NCBI RefSeq assembly: GCF_004006665.1
Contig: NZ_QOCL01000013.1
Span: 1-64,000 of the forward strand
DNA length: 64,000 bases
Source of the DNA: Halobacteriovorax sp. HLS
GTDB lineage: Bacteria > Bdellovibrionota > Bacteriovoracia > Bacteriovoracales > Bacteriovoracaceae
Direction: 5' to 3'
A model generated the notes under the pieces. It was not told the origin of the DNA. It saw only the letters and a list, made by a program, of their open reading frames with translations, and ran no database searches. Position numbers and translations under genes: made by a program. Below are positions 53,116 through 57,657 of this stretch, piece by piece (position 1 is the stretch's first letter; the number at the start of each line of letters is the position of its first letter).

Positions 53116-53937
53116 ATGAGTGAGAAAACGATGACCTTTAATAGCAATGAGACTTTGTCTGCAGCATTTATGCATACAAATATTGATTCAGTAATTAGTG
53201 ATTTTAGTCACTTAACTGCGCTATTAGAGCAAACTCCCCAAATTCTTACTCTTCTTAAAACAATCAATTATAAATTCAACTCTAATGATTTGCTCTTTCA
53301 AGCAATCGGGCATTCTTCTTTTGGACACGAAGTTTTAGGTGACTCCTCTAAGTCCTATGAAACATTAGAGTTTCTTGGAGATAGTGTTTTAGGTCTCATC
53401 ATCACCGAGATGCTTCAGCAGAAGTATCCAACTCTTTCTGAAGGGCGTTTATCGAAGTTTAGGGCCTCACTAGTTAATGAGCAATCATTAGTAAAGCTAG
53501 CGAGCTCCATTAATCTTGAGTCTGTCATACTTGTTGGAAAGGGCGAGTTGTCTAATGAAGGCAATAAGAGAGACTCGGTTATGGCCGATGTATTTGAGGC
53601 CTTATTAGGGGCGATTTATAAAGACTCTTCTCTAGAGTCAGTTAAAGAAGTCCTTGTGACCATTATTGATCTCTTTGAGCAAAAGAGTGGAACCCAGTTT
53701 TTTAATGTAGATAATATTATTCAGTTTGATTCAAAGACTCGTCTGCAAGAGTTGACTATGGCGCTATTTAAGACATTGCCTAGTTATAAATCGGTAGAAG
53801 TGACGGGTAATTTATTTGAGATTGAATTGAGTATTAATAATGAAATCTGTGACAGCGGAACTTTCTCTTCTAAGAAAAAAGGTGAAAGAGAGCTTGCAGC
53901 AAAAGTTTTAAAGAAATTAGAAAAAGAAAATAAATAA
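53116..53937 (+). CDS. rnc: Ribonuclease III
   Basis: RNase III cuts double-stranded RNA in rRNA processing and mRNA turnover. The 273 residues include the signature YETLEFLGDSVLG (81-93) with catalytic acidic residues, EGRLSKFRASLVNE, and RDSVMADVFEALLGAIYKD. A C-terminal double-stranded-RNA-binding domain (about 200-273) ends KKKGERELAAKVLKKL. It has an extra N-terminus of about 45 residues compared with E. coli. It is followed 20 bp later by era, the common rnc-era order. Confidence 0.94.
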   Translation: MSEKTMTFNSNETLSAAFMHTNIDSVISDFSHLTALLEQTPQILTLLKTINYKFNSNDLLFQAIGHSSFGHEVLGDSSKSYETLEFLGDSVLGLIITEMLQQKYPTLSEGRLSKFRASLVNEQSLVKLASSINLESVILVGKGELSNEGNKRDSVMADVFEALLGAIYKDSSLESVKEVLVTIIDLFEQKSGTQFFNVDNIIQFDSKTRLQELTMALFKTLPSYKSVEVTGNLFEIELSINNEICDSGTFSSKKKGERELAAKVLKKLEKENK

Positions 53938-53957
53938 ATTAATCTAAAGGAGATTTT

Positions 53958-54944
53958 ATGCTTATTGAACATCAACACCCAGATAATAAGTCGATTATGG
54001 TAGCTGTACTTGGTGCTCCAAACGTTGGAAAGAGTTCTCTAATTAATTATCTTCTTGGTGTAGATCTATCTGTTGTTACAAGCAAAGCTCAAACAACAAG
54101 AAATAAGTTTCACTGTGTTTTTGCAGTTGATAGAACTGAGATCGTTCTTGTTGATACTCCGGGTCTGCATAAGACAAATCAGGAACTTAATAAGAGATTA
54201 AATGATCAAGCAAGGTCTGGACTTGAAGGTGCTGATCTTAACCTTTTATTGATCGATCTTACTCGTCCAGTAATAGGTCAGTTACAAGACTTTATTGAGA
54301 ATATGGAAACTGAAAACTTCCAAAAGACGTGGATCATCTTCACTAAGTGCGACAGAGTTGAAAATTATAAAGAATTACCGCTTTCTATGGCCTTAGATAA
54401 AATGATGGAAATTATGCCGGCCATTGAGCGTGCGATAGTTGTTTCGACAAAAGATGGAACGAATATGCATAATTTAACAGGTTCGCTAGTTGATGCCGCT
54501 ATTCCTGGACCTCACTACTATGATGACGGTTCAGTATCTAATAAGAATGAAAGATTCTTTGCAACTGAATATATTAGAGAGCAGGCCTTTGAACTTTTAA
54601 ATGATGAGCTTCCATACGAAATTGCTGTTGTTGTTGATGAGTACAAAGACATGAGACCTAAAAAAGGTGAGCCAATGGATAAAGAGAAAATTAAGTCTCA
54701 TATCTCGGCCTCTATTCTAGTTAATCGTCCTTCGCAAAGAGCAATTGTTGTTGGAACTAAGGGTGGAATGATTAAAGAAATTGGAACTCGCTCAAGAAAG
54801 AAAATTGAAGCTATGGTTGGTGGACAAGTTCACTTAAACCTACACGTAAAAGTGTCTCCAAAATGGTTTAAAAATAATTTTGTACTTGAAGAAATTGGTC
54901 TTCCAAGAGCAAAAGATTCTAACAGAGTTTGGCGAAGCAAATAG
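53958..54944 (+). CDS. era: GTPase Era
   Basis: Era is a 16S rRNA maturation GTPase. The 328 residues have G1 GAPNVGKSS (19-27), the G2 TTRNKF, G3 DTPGLH and G4 TKCD. A KH RNA-binding domain (about 230-328) carries the GXXG loop in KGGMIKEIGTRSRKKIE. An AAAGGAG site precedes the ATG. It lies between rnc and der, all on the plus strand, a compact ribosome-maturation cluster. Confidence 0.96.
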   Translation: MLIEHQHPDNKSIMVAVLGAPNVGKSSLINYLLGVDLSVVTSKAQTTRNKFHCVFAVDRTEIVLVDTPGLHKTNQELNKRLNDQARSGLEGADLNLLLIDLTRPVIGQLQDFIENMETENFQKTWIIFTKCDRVENYKELPLSMALDKMMEIMPAIERAIVVSTKDGTNMHNLTGSLVDAAIPGPHYYDDGSVSNKNERFFATEYIREQAFELLNDELPYEIAVVVDEYKDMRPKKGEPMDKEKIKSHISASILVNRPSQRAIVVGTKGGMIKEIGTRSRKKIEAMVGGQVHLNLHVKVSPKWFKNNFVLEEIGLPRAKDSNRVWRSK

Positions 54945-54953
54945 GAAATAATT

Positions 54954-56792
54954 ATGAAAAACAGATCAATGGTTGTTTCATTAATTGGTAGACCAAATGT
55001 TGGGAAGAGTTCTCTCTTTAACCGATTAATGCAAAAACAACATAAAGCAATTACCCACGACCAGCCCGGTGTAACAAGAGATCGTCACTACGGGATTACA
55101 ACATTTGATGAACTGCCAAATGTTGATCCTGCCGATATCATTCTCGTTGATACAGGTGGATTCTACCCTGAGAAAATAGATGAAAGAGGGAAGAATGATG
55201 ATGAGAAGAATGCAAATAAGTTCTTCAATATAATGACAGATCATGCACAAATTGCAATCCAAGAGTCCGACTTAGTTCTCTTTGTAGTAGATGTCCGTGA
55301 AGGAGTCCTACCTTTTGATAGAACGATTGCAGATTATATTAGAACAACAAAGAAACCTTTTTGGGTTGTTGTAAATAAGTTTGACTCTGATAAGCAATGG
55401 GGAGAGGAAGCAGAATTCTACTCTCTAGGAATTAATTCGGACGAAATGTTCTTAACAAGTTCTACCCACGGTAGAGGTGTAATAGACCTTAGAGAAAAGT
55501 TACAACAAATCTCTGATGACTTTTCAAAAGGATCAACTAAGGGGTCGCTTAAAAATGCACCTGAACTCTCTAAAGGGGTGACTCCTAGAGAGCAAGTTGT
55601 TTCTAAGATTGCTCTAATTGGGGCACCAAACGCAGGAAAGTCGACTCTTTTAAATCTACTAGTAGGGGCCGAAAGAGCACTTGTTTCTGATATTGCAGGA
55701 ACTACTGTAGACCCAATCGAAGGTTTCTTTGATATTTACTTTGGTCAAGATGCTAAGATTTTAGAAGAAGATCAAGGTTTCTCAGGTAATGATGGACTTC
55801 TCTTTAGTCAGTACGAAGAGTTCAGAAGTAATAATCCAGAAGTTTACCAGGCCATGGTCGATGCTTACGCGATTGAAGAAGATGATGATAAGAATGCGGG
55901 AATGGAGCACTTTGAAGTTGACTATGAATTAACAGAGTTAATGAATGAGAGTATCGAAGAGCAAGAGCTTACTTCATTAGAAAAGAATTATGAACAAGTG
56001 TTTAGTGAATCTGATGACGAAGAAGAGTTAGATGACTCTGTATCAGAGGTTGCTAACGAGTCAGAAAGTAGTAACTTTTGGCGCTCTATTCATATCGTAG
56101 ATACTGCTGGGATTAGAAGACAGAAAACAGTTAATGGCTTCATTGAGTCTCAGTCTGTTTATAGATCTTTAAGAAGTATTACTGAATCAGACGTTATTGT
56201 TGTAATGATTGATGCTACTAACGGAATTGGTCATCAAGATAGACGTTTAATTGATATCGCCCTTGAAAAAGGGAAGTCAGTAATTGTTGCTCTTAATAAG
56301 TTTGATCTTTTAAAGAATGAACTTCCTGATGAGCGTGCAAAGAAAGCATGGATTGAAAAATTACGTATCGACGTTCCTTGGTTGAGCTTTTGCGATATTA
56401 TAACTATCTCTGCAAAGTATAATAAAGGTATTAAAGGGCTTAAGAATGCTCTTAAGAAAACCATTTTAGTTCGTAACAAGAATATTCCTACTGGTCAGTT
56501 AAATAGATTCGTATTTGACTTAGTAGAAAGAAATCCAGTTATTGCTAAAGTTGGCGGGGCCAAGAGATTTAAAGTTAAGTATACTTCAATGATTAAGCCA
56601 AATCCTCCGACATTTCTTTTATTCTCTAATAAGTCTCAGGGGATTCCTGATCACTATAGAAGATACTTACAAAATGCTATAAGAAATGGATTTGGTCTTG
56701 TGAATACACCGGTGCACTTAATTTTTAGAACTGGTAATGAGCTTGCTCAGAGAATGAAAAAATCAAAGGCAAATATTAGCTTTGATGATTAG
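54954..56792 (+). CDS. der: GTPase Der (EngA) with large acidic insertion in the second G domain
   Basis: Der is a double-GTPase factor for 50S assembly. G domain 1 begins [10 protein letters not shown] with GVTRDR and DTGG. G domain 2 begins [12 protein letters not shown] (about residue 221) with AGTTVDP, then DTAGIRR only at about 382. The usual gap between these two motifs is about 20-25 residues; here about 130, because of an acidic, Ser/Glu/Asp-rich insertion (about 263-372). A KH-like end ([13 protein letters not shown]) closes the protein. At 612 residues it is much longer than the usual 440-490. It is followed closely by an App1-like gene. Confidence 0.93.
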
Positions 56793-56799
56793 GAGAGAT

Positions 56800-57657
56800 A
56801 TGAAAAGTCTTTTTCTTTTAGTACTTCTTTTAAGTACAAGTGTTAGCGCAAAAGTTCTTATGGTATCTGATATTGACGATACGATTAAAAGAACTCATGT
56901 TCTTGGCTATATGACAGGTGGATTACGCTCAACAAATCCATTTATCGGTTTGCCAGAGCTATACACAGCGTTCTTATGTAATCAGGAAGTGACAAAGAAA
57001 GAAAAAGATTTTTGTATTAAAAAGAAAGGAGTGATCCATAATAATAAGAGATGGATCACTTATGTGACGGCCGCCAGTGGCCGTTTACAAATGTTTGGTA
57101 GAGAGTTTATTGCTAGGTCTAATTTTCCAATGGCCGTAGTCAAGGGCAAGAACTCAGAACAAGATTCTTATAAATTTAAATCAGCTGAAATAGCTTCTTT
57201 ACTAGATGGCTATCCACAATATGAAATAGTTCTAATTGGTGATAACGGACAACACGATGCAGGTGTTTACGATCATATCTCAAAGAAGTTTCCTTTTAGA
57301 AAAATAACTTCTTTTATCCACCAAGTTTATTCTTCTGTTGAAGAAGATAAAGAAAAGCGTGGTAGTTCACTTGCTAAAGGTCAAATCGCTTATCTTACAG
57401 CGACAGATTTAGGACTTCATTTCTTAAAGAGAAATTTTATTGAAGAAAAAGACCTTGCAAATATTTCTCGTAATGTTTGGAAACATTTAAATACTGATGA
57501 TGATGATCTCTATGAACAAGTTATTCCTTCGTGGACTAGTTGTGAAGAGTTTGTAAGCTCTTACAAAAGAGCTGATGTAAAAATTTCTGTAGAGTTGAGC
57601 ACTTTGATTAGTAAAATCGAAAAAAGGGTAGAACAGCTCTGCTTAAGTAAGCGGTAG
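56800..57657 (+). CDS. Exported DUF2183/App1-like phosphatase
   Basis: 285 residues with a signal peptide (KSLFLLVLLLSTSVSA) and a haloacid-dehalogenase-like fold of the DUF2183 (App1, phosphatidate phosphatase catalytic) type. SDIDDTIK (Asp24, Asp26) is the catalytic loop, YVTAASGR the second motif, and LIGDNGQHD the metal-binding third. The family removes phosphate from lipids or other substrates; the substrate here is unknown. The start at 56800 has AGGAGAG upstream, right after the der stop at 56792, so it shares the rnc-era-der transcript. Confidence 0.82.
   Translation: MKSLFLLVLLLSTSVSAKVLMVSDIDDTIKRTHVLGYMTGGLRSTNPFIGLPELYTAFLCNQEVTKKEKDFCIKKKGVIHNNKRWITYVTAASGRLQMFGREFIARSNFPMAVVKGKNSEQDSYKFKSAEIASLLDGYPQYEIVLIGDNGQHDAGVYDHISKKFPFRKITSFIHQVYSSVEEDKEKRGSSLAKGQIAYLTATDLGLHFLKRNFIEEKDLANISRNVWKHLNTDDDDLYEQVIPSWTSCEEFVSSYKRADVKISVELSTLISKIEKRVEQLCLSKR

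Follow-up and report, generated by a model that had tools for sequence, protein, structure and literature searches.

The GTPase Der (EngA) of Halobacteriovorax sp. HLS holds 129 residues between the G2 and G3 motifs of its second G domain (GD2), the stretch known as the interswitch, compared with 16 in the Der proteins of other families of the same phylum. The protein, encoded in the 64,000-nucleotide stretch of DNA analysed here (the window), is a known one in a previously undescribed form, as judged from a partial coverage of the literature: among the titles and abstract openings listed for open-licence PMC papers, none describes this insertion, and a description may be in print elsewhere. 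The added stretch, or arm, is real and confined to one family among the genomes tested, and it is built in the order stem, helix-predicted segment and acidic tail. We tentatively regard it as a lineage-specific interaction (docking) arm in the β2-β3 hairpin of GD2 that would tune the residence of Der on the pre-50S particle, a reading held with somewhat less than even confidence.

The der (engA) gene lies on the forward strand at 54954-56792, and its 612 codons form one open frame free of stops. The 612-aa product, composed of GD1, GD2 and a C-terminal KH-like domain, is the single Der found by a search of the 3.84 Mb genome. It passes the cut-off of the NCBIfam equivalog model for Der, TIGR03594 (404.6 bits against 306.7), the KH-like domain PF14714 is matched at residues 511-592 (82.5 bits against a cut-off of 27.3), and sequence and alignment reveal two tandem G domains with motifs G1 to G4 in each. 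Like the Der/EngA proteins of this type (YphC, TIGR03594), it exhibits intact motifs in both G domains, the Asn of the P-loop in GxPNxGKS and a KH-like C-terminus, and it differs from them in the GD2 interswitch (129 residues against 16) and in belonging to a family in which the GD1 interswitch is mostly 22 residues long, against 16 or 20. Binding to the 50S subunit and a requirement in its assembly are the known function of Der/EngA, and the same function is predicted from sequence for this Der. Upstream, rnc (53116-53937, identified by an NCBIfam model) and era (53958-54944, forward strand, over the cut-offs of TIGR00436 and NF000908) are transcribed in the same direction as der, with a gap of only nine bases between era and der. 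The three genes are arranged head to tail and are followed by a gene for an APP1-type phosphatidate phosphatase (PF09949, about 56806-57657) on the 3' side of der, the whole region covering 53116-57657. Probably, rnc, era and der, with their roles in RNA processing and ribosome assembly, form one transcription unit.

The first-pass annotation of this DNA had described an addition that stays in frame, adjoins the GD2 switches and has well-conserved flanks, and these statements have been borne out. The P-loop (G1) of GD2 is GAPNAGKST (residues 223-231, 55620-55646), G2 in switch I is GTTVD (249-253, 55698-55712) and G3 in switch II is DTAG (383-386, 56100-56111), all of them on the forward strand. 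G1, G2, G3 and G4 of GD2 are all present in the 93 distinct family proteins examined, every one of which conserves the P-loop pattern and the sequence DTAGIR. Between G2 and G3, the lengthened interswitch occupies residues 254-382 (55713-56099, forward strand) without leaving the open frame. The reference for its normal size is the Der encoded at L110, a Bdellovibrionaceae-type protein from another family of the phylum, which has 16 residues between GD2 G2 and G3. Since this protein aligns without gaps to the Der of B. subtilis, Coxiella and E. coli across this region, 113 residues are extra in the window's Der. The earlier estimate of about 110 additional residues and its coordinates were therefore right; the usual length, given there as 20-25, was slightly off, as it is 16, and the abnormal lengthening itself stands.

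The composition of the interswitch in the window's Der (29% Asp/Glu and 4% Lys/Arg, for a net charge of -33) is consistent with its first description as an acidic insertion, a label that fits the whole and not every part, because the first ~45 residues include a conserved helix-predicted segment. The most acidic 100 residues of the interswitch come third in a comparison of 418 ORFs of at least 100 aa, called mechanically in 464 kb of the genome. The more acidic 100-residue stretches belong to two other ORFs of the same genome, L167:13047-14579 and L157:45-2174 on contig C3, with net charges of -55 and -40. A Pfam search with 35 inserts of the family returned three scattered weak matches and none for the window's insert, NCBIfam showed no match to the insert, and a profile of the 35 inserts detected no chain among PDB sequences at E values up to 1. 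According to these searches, a known domain inserted in Der was rejected, as no similarity appeared in Pfam, NCBIfam or PDB sequences. An intein was likewise discarded, given the lack of database similarity and of splice residues in a by-eye check of the insert.

The distribution of the lengthened form was established in the window's family, in which the named relatives are Bacteriovoracaceae and Halobacteriovoraceae records, and in other families of the phylum. Der is present, at the threshold used, in 121 of the 129 genomes of the window's family, including all five genomes of its genus. The measurements comprise 98 Der genes from 98 family genomes and, from 20 further families of the phylum, 36 genes from as many genomes; the remaining 31 of the 129 family genomes stay outside the counts due to the absence of a match at threshold, a gene split between contigs or a sequence that was not obtained. 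The GD2 interswitch is lengthened in 98 of the 98, with a range of 22-188 residues and a median of 125, and it reaches at least 60 residues in 91 genomes and at least 100 in 76. Outside the family, it is exactly 16 in 36 of 36, so that the lengthening is as unexpected as had first been claimed.

The first-pass annotation had also stated that absence from the proteins of close relatives, explained by a sequencing or assembly error, would speak against the addition. An error of this kind, or a separate element private to this one genome, now has a practically negligible probability. Versions of the stretch occur throughout the independent genomes of the family, in frame in 98 assemblies, one of which is a single contig (G104), and this excludes an assembly error. 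In addition, the GC content of the interswitch equals that of its flanks (0.372, against 0.367 in the remainder of the gene), and synonymous changes exceed non-synonymous ones. The window's copy contains no tandem repeat; two weakly similar 24-nt pieces, 111 bases apart, were discounted as a repeat. Together, the 98 genomes, the GC content and the lack of a tandem repeat rule out an assembly error, an insertion private to this genome, the expansion of a repeat and an origin in foreign DNA.

Other G domains of the same genome were inspected for their G2-G3 spacing. Both the Era encoded by the adjacent gene and MnmE show the normal 16 residues in by-eye counts, and a genome-wide trend towards long interswitches in related GTPases was discarded on these grounds. 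Within Der itself, GD1 (54954-55580 in the window's gene) has a G2-G3 spacing of 22 in 66 of 93 family proteins; of the 28 non-family proteins that match the pattern, 27 have 16 or 20, five more being unmatched; the G3-G4 stretch of GD1 is also longer in family Der. MnmE of this genome (L004:865-2382, contig C2) exceeds the length of its model by some 48 residues and scores just below the TIGR00450 cut-off. After its G domain it carries the near-repeats GPMGADSKFGSIEPV and GPMGAISKFGPIEPV, and its G4 motif is apparently SHAD instead of the usual NKxD.

The anatomy of the arm was derived from column counts over 81 aligned inserts, each of at least 85 residues, and from two AlphaFold2 models. 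Its first part is the stem strand β2 (residues 254-264, 55713-55745, forward strand), nearly invariant in the family: among the first eleven residues of the 81 inserts, P and I are each found in 80, F in 79, G in 78 and, at another position, 76, and D in 77. At the other end, the strand β3, FWRSIHIV (375-382, 56076-56099, forward strand), runs directly into G3, and the last eight insert residues are xWRSIHIV-like across the alignment (R in 78, S in 74 and W in 65 of 81). β3 is a strand in both models, while β2 is assigned at 255-262 in the full-length model and unassigned in the second one. The ends of the insert are thus the two strands of a lengthened β-hairpin.

After the β2 strand comes a conserved segment predicted to be helical (residues 279-306, 55788-55871, forward strand), a definition based on the two low-confidence models, on conservation and on omega values like those of the core. 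In the 81 aligned inserts, the L, Y, F, R and N residues conserved in this segment can be written LL..QYE.FR.NN....Y. AlphaFold2 places one helix at 279-293 and another that starts at 295 and ends at 306, or at 305 in the second model, and nothing confident further on, so that the structure prediction suggested by the first-pass annotation has yielded helices in this part of the arm and no confident fold beyond it. The two models were built from seven sequences and have mean pLDDT values of 61.6 and 63.3; their core can be used, and the arm is not reliable. The helix-predicted segment is weakly amphipathic (mean z of 0.89 over 280-305 and 0.21 over 279-293). The modelled GD2-KH portion aligned best with the PDB Der chains 6xrs, 2hjg, 9bsl and 3j8g (Z 20.6-24.1). 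Among the Foldseek top matches listed, 16 Der or mt-EngA entries have Z values of 20.0-24.1, the next one falls to 16.8, and no non-Der family comes near the Der chains.

The rest of the arm is an acidic and variable tail (residues 307-373, 55872-56072, forward strand), predicted to be disordered by a pLDDT mostly below 40, by its charge-hydropathy values and by its composition. Asp and Glu account for 38% of the distal part and for 23% of the proximal part in inserts of at least 95 residues, and 76 of 76 distal parts lie in the disordered region of the charge-hydropathy plot, as does the proximal part. With a disorder-side composition and no confident fold in the models, the tail is, as far as prediction goes, an acidic disordered region. 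Distal sequences are poorly alignable except for a YxxVF-like spot, which in the window's Der is the candidate motif YEQVF (346-350, 55989-56003, forward strand). Of 76 inserts, 36 match the pattern [YF]xx[VIL]F in their distal part, compared with 2.6 on average and never more than 9 in 500 shuffles, a count inflated by the kinship of the sequences and obtained with a pattern picked after reading them; it is missing from the other 40. One of the two models shows an extra low-confidence helix at 337-350, which covers this motif.

The selection acting on these parts was estimated from within-genus pairs, 21 of which, out of the 138 considered, had a usable core dS. Omega is 0.00-0.13 in the core, 0.00-0.20 in the proximal 45 residues (values from 13 pairs) and 0.00-0.41 in the tail (values from 18 pairs), all of them rough figures, as synonymous distances are often above 1 and the pairs have branches in common. 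In most pairs, the tail lies above both the core and the proximal part. Synonymous change exceeds amino-acid change, and the arm is therefore a translated and constrained sequence. In these comparisons, it is under purifying selection, strong in the helix-predicted part and weak in the tail.

The values for the tail bear on the possibility that the arm is a tolerated expansion, in which a permissive hairpin turn let an acidic, disordered loop lengthen and shorten, with little function beyond solubility. This reading, which we hold to be rather unlikely, is compatible with the higher omega of the tail, with the range of 22-188 residues and with changes of tail length between close relatives, such as L027 and L031, whose inserts measure 157 and 165 residues and whose cores are identical in the columns used for the trees. 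The acidic arm of another member (L062, genome G055) is a low-complexity EQEREQEQE run of the type expected under such an expansion, and suggests growth by slippage in that lineage. Short interswitches also exist: seven of the 98 family genomes have only 22-45 residues, which implies that the long form is not essential for Der in every member. This dispensability in evolution has to be counted against a docking arm as well. Nevertheless, a merely tolerated loop fits poorly with proximal 45 residues that are almost as constrained as the GTPase core, with the complete absence of extra residues in every other family measured (36 of 36 at 16) and with inserts that are net negative in 93 of 93 proteins.

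The short forms also inform on the history of the arm. In trees of the Der core with the stretch removed, the family forms one clade (SH-aLRT 100 and 99). Several deep branches hold forms of 22, 30, 41 and 45 residues, and others of 24, 29 and 38 are apparently nested among long ones, all of them on long branches whose placement is unsure. Based on the presence of short forms both on deep branches and among long ones, the arm has probably grown stepwise and has at times been trimmed back. The two shortest forms, L139 and L140 (24 and 22 residues), are not included in the analyses that rely on at most 93 distinct proteins. One Halobacteriovoraceae sequence (PASN01000019.1, L103:3262-3264) has a single in-frame stop in Der, VRE*LLPFD, at a position held by Gly in its relatives, which is probably a single-base error.

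As a phylogenetic character, the arm can be compared to conserved signature indels, which are usually short and fixed in length. It resembles them in being confined to one clade (98 of 98 inside, none of 36 outside) and flanked by conserved blocks, and differs from them in its variable length (22-188) and in its sequence, which is variable over the greater part of the addition.

All 93 distinct proteins have a net negative insert, with a mean charge of -26.4, and the domains around it are more basic in the family than outside it (93 against 33 proteins): GD2 has a charge of +7.0 against +0.1, and KH of +13.8 against +8.7. For GD1, no clear difference emerges (-6.6 against -9.1, p 0.16). This pattern would be expected if the tail worked as a built-in RNA mimic, lying over the basic surface of GD2 and KH in free Der, where it would keep unspecific RNA from binding until pre-50S RNA displaced it in the GTP-bound state. 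However, the difference between family and outsiders is a single evolutionary contrast, and within the family the charge of the insert does not correlate with that of GD2, KH or the core (r from -0.04 to 0.01 in 92 independent contrasts). Moreover, GD2 is equally basic (+7.3) in the 12 proteins with inserts shorter than 80 residues. Because the charges do not track each other within the family, self-masking is ranked below docking and is considered improbable.

It has also been contemplated that the arm acts in cis to regulate the GD2 GTPase, replacing a trans-acting partner such as YihI, the partner of Der in enterobacteria. The arm directly connects both switches, and a search of this genome for YihI (PF04220) gave no match, its E. 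coli control being positive. This absence says little, as 13 of 14 control genomes lack YihI too. Also cited in its favour is B. subtilis EngA, in which GD2 has the lower GTPase activity and a switch II devoid of acidic residues (PMC3466195). Against it, no catalytic residue has been identified in the arm, and this explanation is the least credited of those that take the stretch as genuine. Altogether, the docking arm is placed first, followed by the tolerated loop, the RNA mimic and, finally, the regulator in cis.

Hairpins of this type have a precedent in Arf-type small GTPases, in which the β2-β3 hairpin (interswitch) couples both switches in a membrane context; the coupling of hairpin and switches would be alike in Der, and Arf proteins lack the long insertion. 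Additions to Der are also found elsewhere in the protein. E. coli Der has 490 residues, with its GD2 match starting at residue 203, and the linker between its GD1 and GD2 is acidic; it is similar to the arm as an added, reportedly acidic stretch, unlike it in lying between the G domains and not inside GD2. Mycobacterial EngA carries another lineage-specific addition, which is N-terminal and not between the GD2 switches (PMC3323550).

In favour of the docking arm are its presence in all 98 family genomes measured and in none of the 36 others, the single clade, the low omega values, the conserved stem and helix-predicted pattern, the excess of YxxVF-like spots, the uniformly negative charge and the intact GD2 motifs. 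Besides the short forms, the weak amphipathicity, the disorder-side composition of both parts, the 40 inserts that lack YxxVF and the low confidence of the models count against it. The docking arm, tentative as it is, would operate as follows. As the arm hangs between switch I and switch II, its presentation may differ between the GTP-bound and GDP-bound states. As recounted in PMC13278734, E. coli EngA on the 50S subunit has GD2 in the P-site space, KH directed toward the PTC and GD1 toward the L1 stalk, and in B. subtilis EngA (YphC) GTP favours binding to the 45S particle and hydrolysis frees the protein (PMC12560758). Given the location of GD2 in the P-site space, the arm might extend into the maturing 50S at its intersubunit face. 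Docking on a partner there, be it Der itself, a component of the 50S or a further assembly factor, would be the task of the helix-predicted segment, joined in some lineages by the YxxVF motif, and the acidic tail would hold the arm soluble and away from rRNA. The outcome would be a lineage-specific tuning of the binding of Der to the pre-50S particle and of its departure from it. A bolder version, which we consider unlikely, is that the interswitch hairpin is a nucleotide-gated arm that, by means of the conserved helix and, in certain lineages, YxxVF on an acidic tether, recruits or excludes a lineage-specific factor across the P-site face of the pre-50S.

The interswitch joins two parts of the GTPase that move on nucleotide exchange, and the addition of up to 172 residues at this point of a factor that is essential in other bacteria is a natural experiment with two possible answers: the hairpin between the switches can accommodate a loop of very large size, or 50S assembly has an extra input in these bacteria. 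If the nucleotide-gated arm were true, they would possess a checkpoint of 50S maturation not known elsewhere. The lengthened interswitch is, in any case, a clean molecular marker for the family.
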